Source of the DNA: Natrinema salinisoli
Lineage (GTDB): Archaea; Halobacteriota; Halobacteria; Halobacteriales; Natrialbaceae
DNA: 64,000 nucleotides
Direction: 5' to 3'
NCBI RefSeq assembly: GCF_020405205.1
Contig: NZ_CP084469.1
Location: forward strand, 558,001 to 622,000
The position numbers and the translations under genes are program-made. Under the pieces are notes generated by a model, which worked only from the letters and a program-made list of their open reading frames with translations, made no database searches and was not told where the DNA came from. Below are positions 8,115 to 23,755 of the stretch, one piece after another. Numbering within the stretch: the stretch's first letter is position 1; every line of letters begins with the position of its first letter.

Positions 8115-8426
8115 TTACGGCGGGCCGACGGCGCTGAACGGCTCCGGTGGGCCGCCATAGAAGACGATGCCGATCAGGACGGTCAGGATGAACATCCCGA
8201 CCCACATCGACGTCGTCAGACCGACGAGGTAGCCCACGCCGAGCAGTCCGGACTTCGTGTCGCGGGGTTCACCGAGGAACCAGGCCGCGAGCATGATGTA
8301 GACCGGAACCAGGATGACGGCGAAGATGATCCAGGTCCCCTCGTTGGCGAATCCGGTGAAGCCGGCGGTACCGTCGTAGCCGTGGTAGAGCAGTTCCAAC
8401 GGAACGGTTGTCAGTGATGCACTCAT
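8115..8426 (-). CDS. Small membrane subunit of the FeS/NrfD complex
   Basis: A 103-residue protein with two clear hydrophobic segments (residues about 30-52 and 65-92) and short acidic ends. Its ATG overlaps the stop of the NrfD-type gene by four bases (ATGA), so it is the third gene of that operon. I do not recognise a named family. By position it is probably an accessory membrane subunit that stabilises the NrfD anchor. It has no visible cofactor-binding motif. Confidence 0.8.
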   Translation of the reverse strand: MSASLTTVPLELLYHGYDGTAGFTGFANEGTWIIFAVILVPVYIMLAAWFLGEPRDTKSGLLGVGYLVGLTTSMWVGMFILTVLIGIVFYGGPPEPFSAVGPP

Positions 8427-9775
8427 GCTTCCACCTCCGGTTCGGTCGCTTCCTCACTGTGCTCGTGGTCGCCGCGCAGGTGTTCGATCGCGTGGAGTTC
8501 GACCACCGGGACGAGCTTCGAGAGGTTGAGGAATAAAAGTGCAACCAGCGCAGTCGTTCCGACGAGCGAGAGCCACTCGATCGCGCTCGGGAAGTAGGTC
8601 CCGGGCGTGTTGGCGTAGATGTCGAACGTCGGGTGCAGGAACCCTTCGACGACGAAGAGGATCTTCTCGGTCAGGGTCCCGGTGAGGATGATGCCGCTGG
8701 CGAGGAGCGCTCGCTTCTTGCTGAACAGGGCCGGACGGATCCCCTGCAGGAAGATGTACACGAGCGTGCCGAAGATCATCGTCATCGCAACCTGGTAGAC
8801 CGGGTGGGCGATCTTCGCCTCGATCGCGACCGCCTTGTTGGTCGGTCCGAGGAAGACGCCGTTGATGATCGTCTGGAGCTGGAACCACAGGAACAGCAGG
8901 GTGAAGAACCCGAGCCACAGGAGCAGCCCGCGGAAGATGTCGTCAGTGATGATGTGGTCCCAGTCGTAGGCGCGACGGAACGCATAGGAGATAATCATGA
9001 TGCCGCTGATCGCCGACATCAGCGCGATGCTCAGGAACATCGGCCCCTGAATCGCGCCGGTCCAGCCGGGCATCGCCGGCAGGAGCGCGAACAGCCACGG
9101 GATGACGCCACCGTGGAGCAAGAGCGGGGCCATGATGATGACTGCGGCGGCGAGCCACCAGACCATCCGATCGATGACCTGGTCTTCCTTCTTGGTGTAA
9201 CCGATCGTCATGATCTTGTAGACCGGCTCGAACATGTCCGGCAGATCGTCGCGCAGCCGGTTGACGTCGTAGCGCAGCGTCAGGCCGAGATAGGTCGCCG
9301 ACAGCACGAAATAGGCCGTGATGACGGTCACGTCCCACACCAGCGGCGAGTTGTTGACCGTGATGTGGTAGTGGCCGATGACGCTCGTGACCATCCGGTC
9401 CGGACGGCCCATGTGGACCAGAATGTAGAAGCCGGCGGCGGAGAGGCCACCGATCGTGGTCATCTCCGCGAGTCGGGCGACCGGCATGTACCGGTCCATG
9501 CCGAGCAGGCGGACGGCGGCCGAGAGGATGATGCCGCCGTGTGCGACACCGACCCACCAGATGAACGCGCCGATGTACAGTCCCCACGTCGAGCCGCCAC
9601 CGCTCCCCCAGTCGCCGAGGCCGGTAACGATCAGCCCCTGCTGAAGCTGGTAGGCCCAGGCGACGAGGAACGCGACGAGTCCCAGTGCTGCGGCCCCGTA
9701 CAAGATGAAATATTTACTCGTGAGCGTGTTGATCGGGCGGAGGATGTCCGCCTCGGTTGGCTCCTTCGTGCTCAT
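8423..9775 (-). CDS. NrfD/PsrC-family membrane quinone-interacting subunit
   Basis: A 450-residue polytopic protein with about ten hydrophobic segments, matching the NrfD/PsrC/DmsC-like family. These heme-free membrane anchors pass electrons between quinones and a partner Fe-S protein. It overlaps the downstream small membrane gene and the upstream ferredoxin gene by four bases each, so subunits are translationally coupled. Its C-terminus is acidic. In this organism the quinone is probably menaquinone, as men genes lie in the same window. No molybdopterin or other catalytic subunit is adjacent. Confidence 0.93.
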   Translation of the reverse strand: MSTKEPTEADILRPINTLTSKYFILYGAAALGLVAFLVAWAYQLQQGLIVTGLGDWGSGGGSTWGLYIGAFIWWVGVAHGGIILSAAVRLLGMDRYMPVARLAEMTTIGGLSAAGFYILVHMGRPDRMVTSVIGHYHITVNNSPLVWDVTVITAYFVLSATYLGLTLRYDVNRLRDDLPDMFEPVYKIMTIGYTKKEDQVIDRMVWWLAAAVIIMAPLLLHGGVIPWLFALLPAMPGWTGAIQGPMFLSIALMSAISGIMIISYAFRRAYDWDHIITDDIFRGLLLWLGFFTLLFLWFQLQTIINGVFLGPTNKAVAIEAKIAHPVYQVAMTMIFGTLVYIFLQGIRPALFSKKRALLASGIILTGTLTEKILFVVEGFLHPTFDIYANTPGTYFPSAIEWLSLVGTTALVALLFLNLSKLVPVVELHAIEHLRGDHEHSEEATEPEVEA

Positions 9776-11436
9776 AGCGACACCCCGTCGATGCCGCCGA
9801 CGGTCTCGTTATCGAGAGCCTCCTGCCGCTCGTCAAGCAGATCGACGTCCTCGTACTTGGTCGGTCCCTCGACCTGGTGGGCTTCCGGTCCGGGCTCCTG
9901 CCCGAGGTAAGTGACGTTCGGGTTCGTTCCGATGTCCTCGAGTAGCTGGAACGAACTCGGATCGCCCGTGTACTGTTCGAGGCGGAACTGCGCGTCCTGC
10001 TCGCTGCCCTCGCCGAGTTCCAGCGCCTCGAGGGCCGCTTCGCTCTCGAGGTCGACGTACTGCTCGAAGGCCTCGACGGACGCGACGATCTCCTGTTCGT
10101 TCCGGAGAATGCTGTTGTTCTCCTCGTCGCCGGGCTCGGTACCCTCGCTGACGATTTCGATCGACTTCATGATCGCGAGGATGCTCTCGGTGAGACCGTC
10201 GAGCGCCTCGATCGCGGTCTCGAGGTCGTCGCCGTCGCTGAGGGCGCTGTTGATCTGGTCCGGCGACGGAGCGGTTTTGGTGCTTTCGATGCTGTTCGTC
10301 AGGTGAACGATCGCGCGACTCTTGACCGGGTGCTCGCGGTGCTGGGACGGGTCGCTCCGCTCGTCTTTGACGTTCCCGAACTGGATCGCGCCCGGCGGAC
10401 AGGCGGTCTCACAGGCGGACGTCCCGACCTTTTCTTCTCCCTGTTTGCCGTCCTGCATGGACGGACACATCGTACACTTGCTCATGACGCCGCGAGGTGC
10501 GCGGCTGTCGACCCATCGCTCGCCGTACTCGTACTCCGCGTGGGTGATCTGGTCGGGGTTCTCCGGATCCTCGTTCCCGTCGATGTCCTCGTAGTCCACG
10601 CTGGGCTCGTCCCACTGGAAGTAGTTGACGCCGTAGGGACAGGCGACCTGACAGTACCGACAGCCGATACAGACGTCGTAGTCGGTCAGGACGAGACCGT
10701 CCTTGTCGCGAGTGTGACGGGCCGTCGTCGGACAGACCTTCTCGCAGGGAGCGTCCGTGCAGTGCTGGCACGGTCGCACGAGCATGTTGAAGTCACTCCC
10801 CATGTTGAAGTCGGTGTAGACGTCGGTGTTGCCGTCTTCTCCCGGCCCACCGTGAAGTTCGTCCTCCCAGGCCATGACGTACATCCAGTTGACGCCCTCG
10901 TCGAGGTCGTTCTCCTGCGTACAGGCCGTCATGCACGTCAGACAGCCGTCACAGCGCTCGAGGTCGATCGTCATCCCCCACTGGGTATCGCGTTCTTCGG
11001 TCGTCTCCTGGCGGGGTTCGTTGTGTCCCCCTTCAGCGGCGATGTTCTCTTCGGGTCCGTCGCTGGCGGTCCCGAAGGCACCGAGCCCGACGGCCGCCGC
11101 GCCGACGCCCATCTTCTTCATCGTCTCGCGACGGGTCTCGTCCCCGTCGCCGTCGAAGGCACCGAGCATGTTGGAGACGGTTCCGCTCGCCTCCTCCTGT
11201 GCCGCCTCGTAGGCCTCCTTCGTCGGGCGCTCGTCCTCGCCGAACTCTTCCATCACGTCCTCGTGATAGCGTTCGTGGAATTCGGCTTCGGAGAGTTCGC
11301 CCTTCGTGACCCGCATCGCGTCCTGGGCCATTTCCATACCGAGATCGCTGTCGTACTCGGTATCGTCGAGCATCGTCTCGAGTTCGTCCTCCCACTCGTC
11401 CCCGAGCGGGTGGAATGATTCATCGTCCGTACTCAT
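9772..11436 (-). CDS. Four-cluster ferredoxin subunit (NrfC/PsrB/DmsB type) with internal Tat-like motif
   Basis: A 554-residue Fe-S protein. Four Cys groups typical of DmsB/PsrB/NrfC are present: CDGCLTCMTAC (from residue 162), CQHCTDAPCEKVC, CIGCRYCQVAC and CTMCPS followed by CETACPPG. The first ~100 residues are an acidic extension, followed by TRRETMKKMG and an Ala/Gly hydrophobic run at residues 101-125 that resembles a twin-arginine signal placed internally. The C-terminal 150 residues are an acidic extension. It heads the three-gene operon (four-base overlap). A CGAATATGTTCG element lies about 155 bases upstream. It should transfer electrons between the NrfD subunit and an unidentified partner. 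Confidence 0.93.
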   Translation of the reverse strand: MSTDDESFHPLGDEWEDELETMLDDTEYDSDLGMEMAQDAMRVTKGELSEAEFHERYHEDVMEEFGEDERPTKEAYEAAQEEASGTVSNMLGAFDGDGDETRRETMKKMGVGAAAVGLGAFGTASDGPEENIAAEGGHNEPRQETTEERDTQWGMTIDLERCDGCLTCMTACTQENDLDEGVNWMYVMAWEDELHGGPGEDGNTDVYTDFNMGSDFNMLVRPCQHCTDAPCEKVCPTTARHTRDKDGLVLTDYDVCIGCRYCQVACPYGVNYFQWDEPSVDYEDIDGNEDPENPDQITHAEYEYGERWVDSRAPRGVMSKCTMCPSMQDGKQGEEKVGTSACETACPPGAIQFGNVKDERSDPSQHREHPVKSRAIVHLTNSIESTKTAPSPDQINSALSDGDDLETAIEALDGLTESILAIMKSIEIVSEGTEPGDEENNSILRNEQEIVASVEAFEQYVDLESEAALEALELGEGSEQDAQFRLEQYTGDPSSFQLLEDIGTNPNVTYLGQEPGPEAHQVEGPTKYEDVDLLDERQEALDNETVGGIDGVSL

Positions 11437-11590
11437 TAGATCAGAACACCTCTGTATATGACGCTGGTGTCATGCCGGAGGTACTGGACGGCATGCACTT
11501 GAAATCGTTCATTTGTGTGTCCTCATTCCCCGTCTCACAACCGTACTCGGATGAAGTACTGAGTCGATTTCCACTTCGTGAGAATCGAGG

Positions 11591-11602
11591 CGAATATGTT
11601 CG
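11591..11602. promoter_or_regulatory. CGAAC-N2-GTTCG-type palindrome upstream of the FeS/NrfD operon
   Basis: CGAATATGTTCG is one base off the perfect palindrome CGAACATGTTCG found at 12723. It sits between the end of the HTH_10 regulator gene and the start of the iron-sulfur gene, about 155 bases upstream of the latter. It is a candidate operator for the adjacent regulator. Confidence 0.5.
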
Positions 11603-11668
11603 GACGTACAAATAGGTTGCCGCGGATCGATGCCGTCCGGTCGCCGGTCTCGGTTCGACGGCCCTGGT

Positions 11669-12343
11669 TTAAGTACGTGCGAGCTCCTCCTCGAGCGCCT
11701 CTTCGCCGTCGAGGCTCGGGAGATCTTCGACGAATCGCTTGATGATCGCTTCCTCGGCGCGGTGAAGCGTCTCGCTACAGGTCGACTTGGCGATATCCAG
11801 GTGGTCGGCCAGTTCGGTCAGCGAGGACTGGCGCGGCGTATCGTAGTACCCTTCGTCGACGGCCGCGGCGACCACCTCGAGCTGGCGCTCCGAGAGGAGT
11901 TGGCTCTCGTGGAGCCGCTCGCGGACGTGTTCGATCCGGTACTGCAGGCCGAAGTGCTCGAGTTGTTCGGCGAGTTCGGCGAGTCGCTCTCGGGAGCCCG
12001 TGACCTCGATCGACGCCTCGCCGTCCTGGATCTCGACCGGGAGTTCGATCGGCATTCCCGACTCTCGGGAGGAGAACAGCAGGAGCGGTGCCGTCGTCTC
12101 GAAGTGGACCGTCGCTTCGTTGTCGCTCCACTGGGCGAGCGTGATTTCGGTGAGCTGGGGGTGGTCGTTCATCGCGTCCACCACTTCGGGGACGACCGGA
12201 CCGGCGATCCGAACGAGGGCGAAACCGGACTCCGACCCGGGGACGGCCGCGAGGACCCGAAAGGTCGCCTCGGGGTAGTCCGTCGATATCTGTTGGATCC
12301 AGACCTCTTCCGGCATCGTGAGGGACAGGGTTGCTTGGGCCAT
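11669..12343 (-). CDS. HTH_10 (Bat/DmsR-type) transcriptional regulator
   Basis: A 224-residue protein whose C-terminal ~60 residues carry the HTH_10 bacterio-opsin-activator DNA-binding domain (SSLTELADHLDIAKSTCSE with flanking helices). The N-terminal ~150 residues form an alpha/beta sensor-like part without Cys clusters. Family members include Bat and the anaerobic-respiration regulators DmsR and NarO. It is divergent from the first DUF2249 gene, and the shared 126-base promoter region carries three CGAAC-type palindromes. Its own promoter looks like TATATAG near 12366-12372, with one palindrome upstream and one between box and start, consistent with autoregulation. Likely targets are the FeS/NrfD operon and the DUF2249 genes. 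Confidence 0.9.
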   Translation of the reverse strand: MAQATLSLTMPEEVWIQQISTDYPEATFRVLAAVPGSESGFALVRIAGPVVPEVVDAMNDHPQLTEITLAQWSDNEATVHFETTAPLLLFSSRESGMPIELPVEIQDGEASIEVTGSRERLAELAEQLEHFGLQYRIEHVRERLHESQLLSERQLEVVAAAVDEGYYDTPRQSSLTELADHLDIAKSTCSETLHRAEEAIIKRFVEDLPSLDGEEALEEELART

Positions 12344-12344
12344 A

Positions 12345-12356
12345 CGAACGTGTTCC
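12345..12356. promoter_or_regulatory. CGAAC-N2-GTTC(C) element at the regulator start
   Basis: CGAACGTGTTCC lies immediately upstream of the regulator ATG, between it and a TATA-like box (ACTATATACGGG, 12364-12375). A site here would block or modulate transcription of the regulator itself. Confidence 0.5.
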
Positions 12357-12381
12357 GGTCGAAACTATATACGGGTAGTTA

Positions 12382-12393
12382 CGAATATGTTCG
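12382..12393. promoter_or_regulatory. CGAATATGTTCG element in divergent promoter region
   Basis: This is identical to the copy at 11591-11602 and lies just upstream of the regulator's TATA-like box, in a position typical of an archaeal activator. It is about 77-88 bases before the first DUF2249 gene on the other strand. Confidence 0.55.
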
Positions 12394-12425
12394 GCAATTT
12401 CCCAACCGGTGGGAAGACGGAGAGT

Positions 12426-12437
12426 GACGAACACGTT
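12426..12437. promoter_or_regulatory. CGAACACGTTCG element before the first DUF2249 gene
   Basis: It has perfect 5-base arms CGAAC/GTTCG with a 2-base spacer, 33-44 bases upstream of the ATG at 12470. Part of another half site (CGAACG) follows at 12440. Confidence 0.55.
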
Positions 12438-12469
12438 CGCCCGAACGTCCAATCGCTCGTGAATCGAAG

Positions 12470-12706
12470 ATGGATTCGATGGCAACCGAATCCACCGAAC
12501 GAACGCTCGACGTCAGAGAAATCGACGGTCCCCCGTTCGACGACATCATGGCCGCACTGGCGGACCTCGAACCCGACCAGCGACTGCGATTGATCGCCCC
12601 GTTCGAGCCGGAACCCCTTTACGAAGTGCTCGACGACCGCGGGTTCGTCCACGAGAGCGAGGAACGCGACGGCGGTGTCTGGCACGTGCTCATCGAACAC
12701 GCGTAA
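12470..12706 (+). CDS. DUF2249-domain protein 1
   Basis: A 78-residue single-domain protein. The DUF2249 core is recognisable: LDVREIDGPP at the N-terminus, FEPEPLYEVL in the middle and RGFVHESEERDGGVWHV at the end. A second possible ATG is at 12479. DUF2249 has a ferredoxin-like alpha/beta fold and often occurs near nitrite and nitric-oxide reduction genes or fused to hemerythrin-like domains; its biochemical role is not settled. In this copy the usual His-Glu before Pro (HEP) is replaced by PFEPEP, so the putative ligand His is missing. Confidence 0.88.
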   Translation: MDSMATESTERTLDVREIDGPPFDDIMAALADLEPDQRLRLIAPFEPEPLYEVLDDRGFVHESEERDGGVWHVLIEHA

Positions 12707-12722
12707 CGATCCGAATCGATCT

Positions 12723-12734
12723 CGAACATGTTCG
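12723..12734. promoter_or_regulatory. Perfect palindrome CGAACATGTTCG before the second DUF2249 gene
   Basis: All 12 bases are self-complementary. It lies 41-52 bases upstream of the ATG at 12775, in the 68-base gap between two DUF2249 genes, so the second gene probably has its own regulated promoter. It is the best match to the element repeated through this island. Confidence 0.6.
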
Positions 12735-12774
12735 TACAAAAGTCGATGCGGGGCTCGCTCCGACTACGAATTGC

Positions 12775-13008
12775 ATGACACGACTCGACGTCAGGGACAT
12801 TCCACCGGTGAACCGCCATCCGAAGATCCACGACGAATTCGACGCGCTCGAGCCGGGCGAGTCGCTGACGATCGTCAACGACCACGAGCCCAAGCCGTTG
12901 TTCTACGAGTTCGAGGCCGAAGTTGAGAGCTTCGACGCCGACGGCTACGAGGTCGAACAGGTCGCGCCCGACGAGTTCGTCGCGACGTTCCCGAAAGTAG
13001 ACGCATAG
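12775..13008 (+). CDS. DUF2249-domain protein 2
   Basis: A 77-residue protein starting MTRLDVRDIPPVNRH, with the central NDHEPKPLFYEF motif fully conserved for the family and YEVEQVAPDEFVATF near the end. It is the most canonical of the three copies. The divergence between copies is large, so the duplication is old. Function is not known; context with NirK and terminal oxidase genes suggests a role linked to nitrogen oxides or redox sensing. Confidence 0.9.
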   Translation: MTRLDVRDIPPVNRHPKIHDEFDALEPGESLTIVNDHEPKPLFYEFEAEVESFDADGYEVEQVAPDEFVATFPKVDA

Positions 13009-13057
13009 CGTCCAGGACGAGGACGCCTCGTCGCGTCTCGCACAGTCGGACTACGGC

Positions 13058-13069
13058 CGAACACGTACG
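13058..13069. promoter_or_regulatory. Degenerate CGAAC-N2-GTACG element before the third DUF2249 gene
   Basis: CGAACACGTACG differs by one base from the CGAAC-N2-GTTCG form and lies 39-50 bases before the ATG at 13108, the same spacing as for the other two DUF2249 genes. Confidence 0.45.
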
Positions 13070-13107
13070 GGGAGAAAGATAGCTACCGCGGAGCCGAATC
13101 AGCACGT

Positions 13108-13371
13108 ATGTCATCACCCACCGCCGTCGTCGACCGCACCGATGCACCGCGCGATCGGCCGCGGGAGACCCTCGACGTTCGATCGCTCGGGCCGCCGAAC
13201 CCCCTCCAGCAGACCCTCGAGTTGCTCGTCGAACTGCCCGACGAGACGGTGCTGGTCCAGCGCAACGATCGCGTTCCCCAGTTTCTGTTCCCGAAACTGG
13301 ACGATCGGGGCTATCGCTACGAGACGGTCGAGCGGGACGACGACGTCGTGACCGTCATCTGGCGTGACTAG
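13108..13371 (+). CDS. DUF2249-domain protein 3
   Basis: An 87-residue protein with an extra N-terminal ~20 residues before ETLDVRSLGPPNP. The central motif is altered to NDRVPQFLFP, so His and Glu of the HEP signature are gone, while the end RGYRYETVERDDDVVTV is conserved. It is followed 87 bases later by the heme synthase fusion on the same strand. Confidence 0.87.
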   Translation: MSSPTAVVDRTDAPRDRPRETLDVRSLGPPNPLQQTLELLVELPDETVLVQRNDRVPQFLFPKLDDRGYRYETVERDDDVVTVIWRD

Positions 13372-13410
13372 CGACGATTCCCGTTTGCCGATCCGATCAG
13401 CAACCCGTCC

Positions 13411-13425
13411 CGAACCGTCAGTTCG
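13411..13425. promoter_or_regulatory. CGAAC-N5-GTTCG inverted repeat before ctaB
   Basis: CGAACCGTCAGTTCG has the same arms as the island palindromes but a 5-base spacer. It lies 34-48 bases upstream of the heme synthase start at 13459. The different spacer makes shared regulation uncertain. Confidence 0.35.
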
Positions 13426-14916: not shown

Positions 14917-14971
14917 CCGGGCCGACGAGCCGCGACGTTCCACTCGAGCCAGCGCGATCCGCGTTTTCACG

Positions 14972-14983
14972 GGAATATGTGCG
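14972..14983. promoter_or_regulatory. Weak match to the island palindrome before the oxidase operon
   Basis: GGAATATGTGCG matches CGAATATGTTCG at 10 of 12 bases and lies 49-60 bases before the first gene of the ba3 oxidase operon. It may be chance. Confidence 0.25.
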
Positions 14984-15031
14984 GGACAACGGATATGCAG
15001 ATATCAAAACGAGTTCCGGCTGAACGAAACG

Positions 15032-18827: not shown

Positions 18828-21332
18828 TCACCGCTCGTCGTCGAGTACCGCCCGCGAGGAGTTGACGACGACGATGGCGCTGCTGGTCGCCATCGCAACG
18901 GCCGCGAAAAGCGGGTTTATCAGTCCCATCGCGGCCAGCGGGATCGCGACGGCGTTGTACAGCAGCGCCCAGCAGACGTTCTCGCGAATGCGCCGCCGGG
19001 TGGCCTCCGCGAGATCGAACACCGAACGGACGGCGCGGAGGTCACTCGAGGTGACGACCGCGTCGGCGGCGTCGGTCGCGCGGGCGGTCCCGTCACCGAG
19101 CGCGATCCCGACGTCCGCCGCGGCCAGCGCAGGCGCGTCGTTCGTCCCGTCGCCGACCATCGCGGTCACGCCCTCGCTGGAGAGTCGCCGAACGGTCTCG
19201 ACTTTCCCGTCCGGCGGGACGCCCGCGAAGACGCGATCGACCGAGGGATGGTCACGAAACGTCTCGGTCGCGGCCGCGTCGTCGCCCGTCAGTACGACCA
19301 CCTCACGGTCGGCGAACGATTCGAGGACATCGCTCCACTCGGTGCGCGTCCGATCGCCGACGACGGCGACGGCCCTCGCCCGCCCGCCGTAGCCGACGAC
19401 CGCGGGGAGTCGACCCCGATCTCGAGCATCGTCGATAGCCGCCTCGAGCTCGGCCGGCACCGGGCCGATCAGCCGCTCGACGAGCCCCGGCGTGCCGACG
19501 ACTACCCGCTCACCGTCTTGCCTCTCGTCGCCGCGATCCGGGCCGATGGCGGACGACACTGCTCCCTCGACCTCGACCGTCGCGCTGACGCCCTCGCCGG
19601 GATGCCGGTCGAAGTCACGCACTTCGATTCCGGCGCTCGACTCGTCGTCCGTCTCCGACTCGAGGCGGCCGCCGTCGGACGCGACGCGTGCGTCGGTCTC
19701 CGCTCCGTCCGATCCGTCCGCTTTTTTCGCCGCGGCGCGGGCGACGATGGCATCGGCAACGGGGTGTTCCGAACGGCGCTCGACGGCCGCGGCGAGATCG
19801 ACCGCCTCGTCGTCTCCGTGGACCTCGAGGACCGTCATCTCGCCCGCCGTCAGCGTCCCCGTCTTGTCGAAGACGACCGTCTCGACGGTCGCTGCCGACT
19901 CGAACACCGTCGCGTTCGCGACGACGATCCCGCGCTCCAGGGCGTCGCGCAGCCCCGAAGCGACCGCTAGCGGCGTCGCCAGCCCCATCGCACAGGGACA
20001 GGAGACCACGAGTACCGTCAGCCCCGTGAGTACCGCGTCTCCCACGGCCGTTCCCGTGGTGAGGCGCCAGCCCGTCACGACGAGCGCGAGCGTCAGCACG
20101 AACGGAACGAAGATCGTCGCGAGTCTGTCCGCCAGTCGCTGGACGCCCGGCGTCGCGCTCTGAATCTCCCACATGAGCGTCGCGATGTGGTCGAGCGTGC
20201 TCTCGGCGTCCTCGCCGACCTCGACGACGAGCGCGCTGTCGGTCACGATCGACCCGCCGACGACCCGATCCCCTGGTCGTTTCGTGACCGGCAACGACTC
20301 GCCGGTGAGGACGGACTCGTCGACGGCCGCCGTTCCCTCGAGGACCGCGCCGTCGATCGGAACCCGTTCGCCGGGCCTGACGAGAACCTCGTCGCCCGCG
20401 ACGAGCTGATCGACCGGAACCGTTTCCGCCCCCGCCGACGTTCGGCGGGTCGCCTCGCGAACCCGTGCGGCGGTGACGTCGGCGAGCAGATCTGTCGCCC
20501 GGCGTTTGACCCGGCGCTCGTAGTAGGTTCCGAGCGAGACGATCAGGATCACGGCGACGGTCACGTCGTAGTAGAGGTGCGTACTCCCCATCGCCAGCGC
20601 GACGGTACTGTACGCGTACGCCGAGACGGCTGCGATCGCGATCAACAAGTCCATGTTCGGTCGTCTCACTCGGAGACTGACGTACGCCCCCCGCAGGACC
20701 GGATAGCCGGTGTAGAACAACACGCCGCTCGTCAACACCCCGATCATCGCCATCGGCAAGTAGACGCCGACGGGTGAGGTCGCGTCGACGGTCAGAATTC
20801 CCGTCTCGATCCCGACGTAGCTCGGGTAGAGGTAGAACAGGTACCACGGCATGACGAGCATCGCCAGGAACCCGCCGGCCAGCAGCCGCTGGACCAGTTC
20901 CTCGTCGGCGCGGGCGGTCCCGCCGTCGTCATCGCGGAACCGGGCCTCGTAGCCGTACCCGGAGAGCGCCTCGGGGAGCTCCGCCTCGTCCAGCCGGTCC
21001 GGGTCGTAGACGACGCGGACAGTGTCGGTCGCGTAACTCGCCTCGACCGTCCGGATTCCGGGCTCCCGTTCGCCGAGCAGGGAAAGGAACCCCTCGCAGG
21101 TCGAACAGTGCATCCCCTCGACCGCGAGAAACGTCTCCTCGCTCCCATCGGGCACCTCGCGATCACCGCGTTCCGTCGCGCGGTCGACGACCGCCTCCCG
21201 GTCGAGATCGTCGACGTCCGCAAGGCTCGCGCTCACCTCGAGACAGCCGCGACAACAGAAGGTTCCCTCGACGTCCGCCGCCGTCACCGGTCGGTCGGGG
21301 ATCGGGAGTCCACAGAGCGAGCAGGAACTCAT
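18828..21332 (-). CDS. CcoI/FixI-like copper-transporting P1B-type ATPase
   Basis: About 834 residues from the ATG complementary to 21330-21332 ([10 protein letters not shown]); an upstream frame adds 31 unlikely residues. The N-terminus has a Cys-rich metal-binding segment (Cys4, Cys7, then FCCRGC at 25-30), followed by an HMA domain with GMHCSTC. Later come the channel motif SCPCAMGL, phosphorylation motif DKTGT and hinge [10 protein letters not shown]. The extra N-terminal Cys segment and CPC fit the CcoI/FixI (CopA2) branch, which exports Cu(I) slowly for assembly of cytochrome oxidase and other external copper enzymes. Its place between ba3 oxidase and NirK genes agrees with that role. 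Confidence 0.93.
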
Positions 21333-21515
21333 TCCACGATCGATTGTCGTCCACGCGGCGGGTAGCCCTACCCCCGAACCCGTTCGGGGTGCTATTCTCG
21401 AGCGACGGAATCGATCCGGATTCACCGACGGTGCGATCGCCAGCGACGGCCCGCGATCACTGCGGGTCGCAAGCGACAGTCCGAATCTCGACTCGAGGAA
21501 CCGAATACCACGCCG

Positions 21516-22666: not shown

Positions 22667-23755
22667 ATGACCGAAACCCAATTCAACCGACGGCAGGTGG
22701 TGCAGGCGATCGGGGCGACCGGCGCGCTGGCGGTGGCCGGCTGTCTCGATGGCGATACGCAGGGGAACAGCGCGGAAACCGACGAGCCGGCGGGCGAGGA
22801 GGGACTGCCGGAAGCGAAGGCGGTCGACGTCGACCGGATCGCGCGGGACCCGACGGACGTTCCCGCGCCGGTCGATTGGGACGAGCCGCGCGAACACGAC
22901 ATCACGATCGAGACGGTTCGGCAGACGGCCGAGATCGAACCCGGGGTCACGTTCGAGTACATGACCTTCGAGGGGCAGGTTCCCGGCCCGATGGTCCGCG
23001 TGCGCCGCGGCGATCGGGTGAACCTCACGTTCGATGTCCCGGAAGACCTGAACGCGGCCGCGCACAACATGGACTTCCACGCGGTCTACGGGCCCGGCGG
23101 CGGGGCCGACGCGACCACGATCGCGCCCGGCGACGACCCGACCCAGATCAGCTTCACGGCCGACTACGCGGGGGTGTTCATCTACCACTGTGCGATCCCG
23201 AACATGGACCAGCACATCAGCAGCGGCATGTTCGGTTCGATCCTCGTCGAGCCCGAAGAGGGCCTCCCCGAGGTCGACCACGAGTACTACCTCGGCCAGC
23301 ACGAGATCTACACCGACGGCGACGTCGGCGAGGAGGGCCACCACAGCTTCGACTTCGACGCCATGCTCGAGGAATCGCCGACCTACGTCGTGTTCAACGG
23401 CCAGGCCTACGGCTTCGCCCCCGACGGCGGCCAGCCGATGCAGGCCAACACCGGCGAAACTGCGCGGGTGTACTTCGCCAACGGCGGGCCGAACCTGCTG
23501 AGCTCGCTCCACCCCATCGGGAACGTCTGGAGCCGCTACTACCGCGACGGCGACCTCCTGAGCGAACCCGACCTGAACATCGAGACCGCGCCCGTCGCCC
23601 CCGGGACGACCACCGCGGCCGAAATGGAGTTCCCCGTCCCCGGCCCGGTCAAGATCGTCGACCACGCGCTGACGCGCGCCGCTCGCCGGGGCGCACTCGG
23701 CGTCGTCAACGTCGAGGGCGAACCGACCGAAGACCTCTACGACGAGGATCCGTGA
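22667..23755 (+). CDS. nirK: Copper-containing nitrite reductase
   Basis: 362 residues from ATG 22667; a longer frame from 22412 adds 85 non-homologous residues. The N-terminus is a lipoprotein-type signal (RRQVVQAIGATGALAVAGC, Cys26), so the enzyme is external. Two cupredoxin domains carry every key residue: type 1 copper His133, Cys175, His183, Met188; type 2 copper His138, His174, His333 (VDH); catalytic Asp136 and His282 (SLHPIG). It reduces nitrite to nitric oxide in denitrification, with halocyanin as probable donor. No nitric oxide reductase is in the window. It is a stand-alone gene near the oxidase, copper ATPase and DUF2249 genes. Confidence 0.96.
   Translation: MTETQFNRRQVVQAIGATGALAVAGCLDGDTQGNSAETDEPAGEEGLPEAKAVDVDRIARDPTDVPAPVDWDEPREHDITIETVRQTAEIEPGVTFEYMTFEGQVPGPMVRVRRGDRVNLTFDVPEDLNAAAHNMDFHAVYGPGGGADATTIAPGDDPTQISFTADYAGVFIYHCAIPNMDQHISSGMFGSILVEPEEGLPEVDHEYYLGQHEIYTDGDVGEEGHHSFDFDAMLEESPTYVVFNGQAYGFAPDGGQPMQANTGETARVYFANGGPNLLSSLHPIGNVWSRYYRDGDLLSEPDLNIETAPVAPGTTTAAEMEFPVPGPVKIVDHALTRAARRGALGVVNVEGEPTEDLYDEDP

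Follow-up and report, generated by a model that had tools for sequence, protein, structure and literature searches.

Copies of the palindrome CGAA-N4-TTCG precede genes of a DUF2249/FeS/NrfD cluster in Natrinema salinisoli, and we consider it probable, with good confidence, that they are the operators of the HTH_10 regulator encoded in this cluster, a class-wide factor that would activate or repress depending on where its box lies and would act outside the cluster as well. Since the boxes stand at fixed distance and are kept as long as haloarchaea keep the regulator, this protein very probably reads the palindrome known from denitrification. The motif itself, driving the Haloferax nos and nor promoters, has already been published. 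New here are the footprint across the class and the test of co-occurrence, as well as the autoregulatory architecture and the reach of the motif into the DUF2249/FeS/NrfD module. One orthologue group is thereby named as the likely class-wide reader of the known motif, operator positions are predicted to the base, and the predicted regulon, besides denitrification, takes in DUF2249 proteins and a respiratory module of FeS/NrfD type. The analysis was computational and centred on a window of 64,000 nucleotides (C1:558001-622000); the genome-wide work consisted of pattern searches and selected stretches.

Palindromic boxes of the DUF2249 cluster

On the plus strand to the right of the regulator gene, three DUF2249 genes are followed by a ctaA-ctaB fusion and ba3-type oxidase genes; an FeS gene and an NrfD gene occupy the minus strand to its left (Table 1). 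The first-pass annotation had claimed eight copies of a palindrome defined as CGAAC-N2-GTTCG. Six of them stood on direct reading (11591, 12345, 12382, 12723, 13058 and one shifted from 12426 to 12428), and the copy described as perfect, at 12723, is indeed so, as is that at 12428. The strict definition was rejected because the centre drifts between relatives while the CGAA and TTCG halves persist; in the cluster loci compared, the halves are the fixed part of the motif and the centre is variable. The other two copies were rejected, namely a wider-spaced one at 13411, with a conserved copy before ctaB in none of nine loci, and one at 14972, which belongs to a different element, GGGAATATGTGCGGG. 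This element occupies 14971-14985, about 60 bp before a small ba3-oxidase gene (ATG 15032), and is identical in all seven loci compared.

Table 1. Genes and palindromic boxes of the window; distances run from the ATG to the start of the box.
Feature	Position	Strand	Remarks
NrfD-type membrane subunit	8423..9775	-	PF03916 5e-21; overlaps FeS gene; predicted to be in the same operon
4Fe-4S electron-transfer subunit (DsrO/QrcC/DmsB-like; FeS gene)	9772..11436	-	Predicted target
Box CGAATATGTTCG	11591..11602		Reads CGAACATATTCG on - strand; -166 of FeS gene
HTH_10 (Bat-type) regulator	11669..12343	-	224 aa; PF04967 1e-17; candidate cognate factor and autoregulator
Box CGAACGTGTTCC	12345..12356		One mismatch; -13 of regulator, at presumed start site; candidate autorepression site
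Box CGAATATGTTCG	12382..12393		CGAACATATTCG on - strand; -50 of regulator, just upstream of TATA-like gtatatag
Perfect box CGAACACGTTCG	12428..12439		-96 of regulator and -51 of DUF2249 gene 1 (ATG taken as 12479)
DUF2249 protein 1	12479..12706	+	PF10006 4e-19
Perfect box CGAACATGTTCG	12723..12734		-52 of DUF2249 gene 2
DUF2249 protein 2	12775..13008	+	PF10006 5e-24
Imperfect box CGAACACGTACG	13058..13069		One mismatch; -50 of DUF2249 gene 3
DUF2249 protein 3	13108..13371	+	PF10006 6e-14
P-type metal-transporting ATPase with HMA domain	18828..21332	-	PF00122, PF00403
Box CGAACGGGTTCG	21375..21386		Read on - strand; -54 of the gene for the P-type metal ATPase (ATG 21332), a probable additional target

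Each DUF2249 gene has a box, as claimed at first, but the spacing of 33-52 bases before the ATG gives way to a uniform -50 to -52 with gene 1 starting at 12479, a start that we prefer over the in-frame 12470 on account of this spacing. Among 20 relatives that have the cluster, distance is constant for the boxes of the regulator, the FeS gene and DUF2249 genes 1 and 2 while their four central bases change, and a changing centre with constant halves and distance is the pattern predicted by selection on the dyad. Gene starts in relatives were set automatically at the nearest in-frame ATG or GTG, so that single distances in the following counts may err by a few codons. The box at 12428, shared by the regulator and DUF2249 gene 1, is conserved in 20 of 20 loci. 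That of gene 2 is always at -52, with a varying centre (perfect in 15/20 loci, one mismatch in 5/20), and before gene 3 the imperfect form itself is kept in most relatives. The FeS-gene box is perfect in 17 of 21 loci and its site is retained at -157 to -167 in 20 of them. The box of the P-type ATPase gene stands at -54 in all three loci where the start could be placed.

The proposal that one regulator controls the module is well supported, as far as sequence goes, for the DUF2249 and FeS/NrfD genes, but it does not carry over to the ctaB and ba3-oxidase genes: no box is present at the promoters of the ba3 oxidase and the ctaA-ctaB fusion, which were discarded as direct targets. A 23-codon ORF (MNDFKCMPSSTSGMTPASYTEVF) was noticed on the minus strand at about 11441-11512, within the stretch of leader that separates the FeS gene from its -166 box.

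The palindromes are genuine and cannot plausibly be put down to chance. The AT-centred form CGAAYATRTTCG has seven copies in the 4.70-Mb genome, three of them within 1.14 kb at the cluster (Poisson P 8e-10; about 3e-6 allowing for all windows), and four of the 363 genome matches to the looser CGAA-N4-TTCG fall there (P 2e-6, about 0.01 corrected). Enrichment in promoters, expected at first across the genome, is divided. Most CGAA-N4-TTCG matches look like background, but of 24 CGAAYRYRTTCG sites checked, 6 begin 50-53 bp upstream of an ORF, a position in which about 0.2 would be expected. Three of these six lie outside the cluster, before genes for a cupin protein (C1:862.9 kb) and two uncharacterised proteins (C1:435.4 kb and C1:3015.3 kb), and are weaker candidates than the cluster sites; most of the remaining CGAA-N4-TTCG matches are probably background.

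The regulator and its promoter across Halobacteria

The regulator is built of a BAT-like sensor region followed by a C-terminal HTH. Its HTH_10 domain scores 64.1 bits, above the curated cut-off of 23.1, and the BAT (PF15915) match in the profile search was weak (19.9 bits, below the cut-off of 25.8). Orthologues occur throughout Halobacteria with a near-invariant HTH (AKSTCSETLHRAEE), mean identity being 0.91 in the columns of the recognition region compared to 0.70 in the N-terminal part. The only cysteines, Cys 173 and Cys 189, are both in the HTH region, in nearly all of 70 orthologues. The fold predicted with 5 sequences (mean pLDDT 68, good in the N-terminal part and poor in the HTH) places an alpha/beta sensor region of about 140 aa in the N-terminal part, with borderline structural matches only. 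The best of these, Thermoplasma Ta1207 (Z 7.8 over 127 residues), was set aside because its Z falls within the range seen for unrelated folds, and a search of solved structures with the regulator sequence returned no relative (best E 0.59).

Boxes begin at -96, -50 and -13 from the regulator ATG. Read along the minus strand, the -50 box comes first, then gtatatag and finally the ATG, and the -13 box falls on the presumed start site. The order of -50 box, gtatatag and ATG is what a leaderless promoter would show if an activator bound immediately before BRE/TATA. For activators of the Bat/DmsR type, the proposed position is likewise just upstream of TATA.

This architecture is retained far beyond Natrinema. 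Allowing at most one mismatch, a box is found in 70 orthologous promoters at exactly -50 in 35, -13 in 24 and -96 in 22; most promoters without these exact positions have boxes nearby, and in most others the -50 box falls at -49 to -59. Boxes are kept across the class, among orthologues from 100% down to about 45% protein identity. The autoregulation suggested at first is in this respect well supported, and the regulator probably acts on its own gene through the three boxes. In a footprint of 39 diverse regulator promoters (about 45-79% protein identity), CGAA-N4-TTCG was present in 29, compared to 4 for the next best of 256 half-sites, at most 2 for other spacer lengths and far fewer than one for Markov-simulated sequences. 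Only the 4-bp spacer works in this footprint; about a quarter of the diverse promoters are without a perfect box.

A second conserved dyad, TTCCCA-N5-TGGGAA, lies at 12399-12415 (-72 of the regulator ATG). The form TTCC-N9-GGAA is found in 26 of the 70 orthologue promoters and persists in three (L058, L065 and L076) where the perfect -50 box has been lost. The dyad is possibly the site of another regulator.

Sites beyond the cluster and the published motif

In this genome, the NO reductase gene (nor) has CGAACCTGTTCG at -80, and a perfect box is present in 55 of 81 nor promoters class-wide, mostly at -76 to -80. The NO reductase here is 98% identical to that of N. salsiterrestre. A four-domain DUF2249 gene has a box at -51 to -55 in six of seven genomes. 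Conservation in orthologous promoters, by which the first-pass annotation had proposed to judge its regulon, is thus strong for the regulator, the cluster, nor and the four-domain DUF2249 gene. The Cu nitrite reductase gene of the window (nirK, 22667-23755) was rejected as a target, as it has no box and only 1 of 11 loci has one. This result concerns the window nirK; the genome has a second nirK gene at C1:2324348. No CGAA-N4-TTCG box was found at the promoters of a nar/DMSO-type II reductase operon in the stretch read (within C1:485001-503000).

Around nor, some minor features were seen. In 13 of 80 loci (nor promoters, L054 and L114-L193), a TTCC-N8-GGAA dyad stands in the interval that separates the CGAA box from the nor ATG, and GGAA is common in nor promoters at +32 to +35, counted from the CGAA box. 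Directly upstream of nor there is here a truncated globin gene (L054:2601-3023); in H. mediterranei, a globin gene is among those that carry the motif, according to PMC11218638.

The literature gives the palindrome a role in denitrification. A MEME consensus, CGAAYATDKTYG, was obtained in H. mediterranei, and mutating the motif lowers nos and nor promoter activity (PMC10062603); in the nos mutant, the first base was changed from C to T. In the same species, the motif was found in 25 promoter regions whose genes are differentially expressed, among them a bacterioopsin activator and DUF2249 genes; these were co-induced with the denitrification genes, and the regulatory network of denitrification was called completely unknown (PMC11218638). 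In H. volcanii, CGAA-X4-TTCG is essential for nirK (Hattori, 2016, cited in PMC5746218). The published motif has the same core palindrome as ours, including the exact 12-mers CGAACATGTTCG and CGAATATGTTCG, and likewise lies upstream of nor, alongside DUF2249 and bacterioopsin-activator genes. It differs in that the palindrome here serves the DUF2249/FeS/NrfD cluster and leaves the window nirK without a box; the uniform -50 position and the -96/-50/-13 boxes of the regulator are absent from the published passages compared.

The bacterioopsin activator E6P09_00735 has been proposed as the H. mediterranei regulator from its location. It belongs to the nirK/nor cluster and, like the window regulator, is a short HTH_10 protein lacking PAS/GAF whose cluster is rich in the motif and includes DUF2249 genes; we infer from gene order that it is the named counterpart. 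The window regulator is about 44% identical to its Haloferax orthologues, and the neighbouring genes differ. Six Haloferax genomes have the orthologue with a box at about -54 (loci L097-L102 and L105). At the one Haloferax locus inspected, the orthologue has a Cu-oxidase (nirK-like) gene on one side and nor on the other, with AhbD-like radical SAM and DUF2249 genes close by, and H. denitrificans has a second copy on a stretch carrying nosZ. Two Haloferax genomes without the orthologue have a single motif match each. The Haloferax orthologue is the best candidate reader of the published CGAAYATDKTYG.

Motif and regulator also occur together on a larger scale. A count of AT-centred CGAAYATRTTCG in 292 Halobacteria genomes gave a mean of 3.2 for the 252 that have the orthologue and 0.6 for the 27 that lack it, 13 genomes with intermediate matches being left out and the cut between absent and present being drawn by eye from E-values, before the test and with motif counts already visible. 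The motif tracks the regulator within genera (permutation p = 5e-5, the smallest value attainable with 20,000 permutations), although this co-occurrence is not fully independent evidence because loss of the regulator is usually loss of its cluster. An everted control motif showed no difference between genomes with and without the regulator (0.31 vs 0.33).

The probable reader of the boxes and its proposed mode of action

The regulator probably binds CGAA-N4-TTCG directly and as a dimer. From boxes at about -50, immediately before the BRE/TATA of a leaderless promoter, it would activate its own gene as well as the FeS/NrfD genes and the three DUF2249 genes, and from the -13 box, over the start site, it would limit its own expression; low oxygen or a nitrogen oxide may be the signal. 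The same factor would act outside the cluster on at least nor and the four-domain DUF2249 gene, and the Natrinema protein would represent a haloarchaeal regulator found throughout the class, with a Haloferax orthologue between nirK and nor.

This genome has 49 HTH_10 genes, one of which, different from the window regulator, lies within a few kb of the nar-like operon (C1:485-503 kb), and in H. volcanii the control of denitrification is tied to NarO (cited in PMC10062603). The boxes could hence be read mainly by a NarO- or DmsR-like paralogue encoded elsewhere, with the local regulator merely a target, yet we hold this to be unlikely. Motif number follows the presence of this orthologue within genera, the same regulator clade adjoins boxes in settings as different as nirK/nor, narGH and DUF2249/FeS/NrfD, and H. 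mediterranei is reported to use the motif without having a NarO homologue (PMC10062603). Judged by coordinates, the 1.5 kb or so upstream of each of the other 48 HTH_10 genes of this genome contains no strict box. It is because of the co-occurrence, the boxes retained down to about 45% identity and this lack of strict boxes elsewhere that we favour the window protein over a paralogue as the reader. Since NarO is reported for H. volcanii, more than one HTH_10 factor may act on denitrification promoters.

That the regulator is purely a repressor of the module, with the -50 boxes blocking access to BRE/TATA, seems quite improbable. The box end at -39 does adjoin BRE/TATA, and in the regulator promoter a copy at -13 extends across the start site, but the loss of nos and nor promoter activity on mutation of the homologous box (PMC10062603) and the joint induction of bacterioopsin-activator, DUF2249 and denitrification genes (PMC11218638), both in H. 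mediterranei, argue for activation. There is a negligible chance that the palindromes simply reflect the composition or coding content of CG-rich haloarchaeal DNA and serve no regulation. Such an origin fits the 363 genome matches, of which it likely still explains most, and the fact that most checked sites are not at promoter position, but it is refuted for the cluster sites by their conservation in relatives; position and spacer are fixed, the centre drifts and conservation spans the class, all of which speaks against it, and the everted control has no such pattern.

The window regulator resembles known HTH_10 proteins only in part. The analogy with NarO of H. volcanii, drawn at first, holds for the HTH_10 domain and the promoter class to which both are tied, but is wrong on the cysteine signature. 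NarO reportedly has an N-terminal CXnCXCX7C motif, going back to a 2016 study, and the window regulator has no such N-terminal signature. Nor is it beside a nar operon, its neighbours being the DUF2249 and FeS/NrfD genes and the nar-like operon lying elsewhere. Bat and DmsR of Halobacterium share the HTH_10 family with it, but the window regulator is without a PAS or GAF domain.

Tentatively, and with more doubt than conviction, it could be regarded as a master respiratory regulator of Halobacteria, autoregulated and reading CGAA-N4-TTCG in nearly all of the class, which would switch whichever anaerobic or low-oxygen respiratory genes are present and would sense without NarO-type cysteines, perhaps via an ACT-like N-terminal region or a DUF2249 partner. 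In Thermus, DUF2249 proteins are linked to nitrate respiration and to a regulator through DrpA (PMC6282519), although Thermus uses DnrST and not HTH_10. By analogy with DrpA, we hypothesize that haloarchaeal DUF2249 proteins may have a sensory role. A DUF2249 domain is also borne by an Mrp-like P-loop protein of the nar/DMSO-type II reductase operon (L052, C1:485001-503000).
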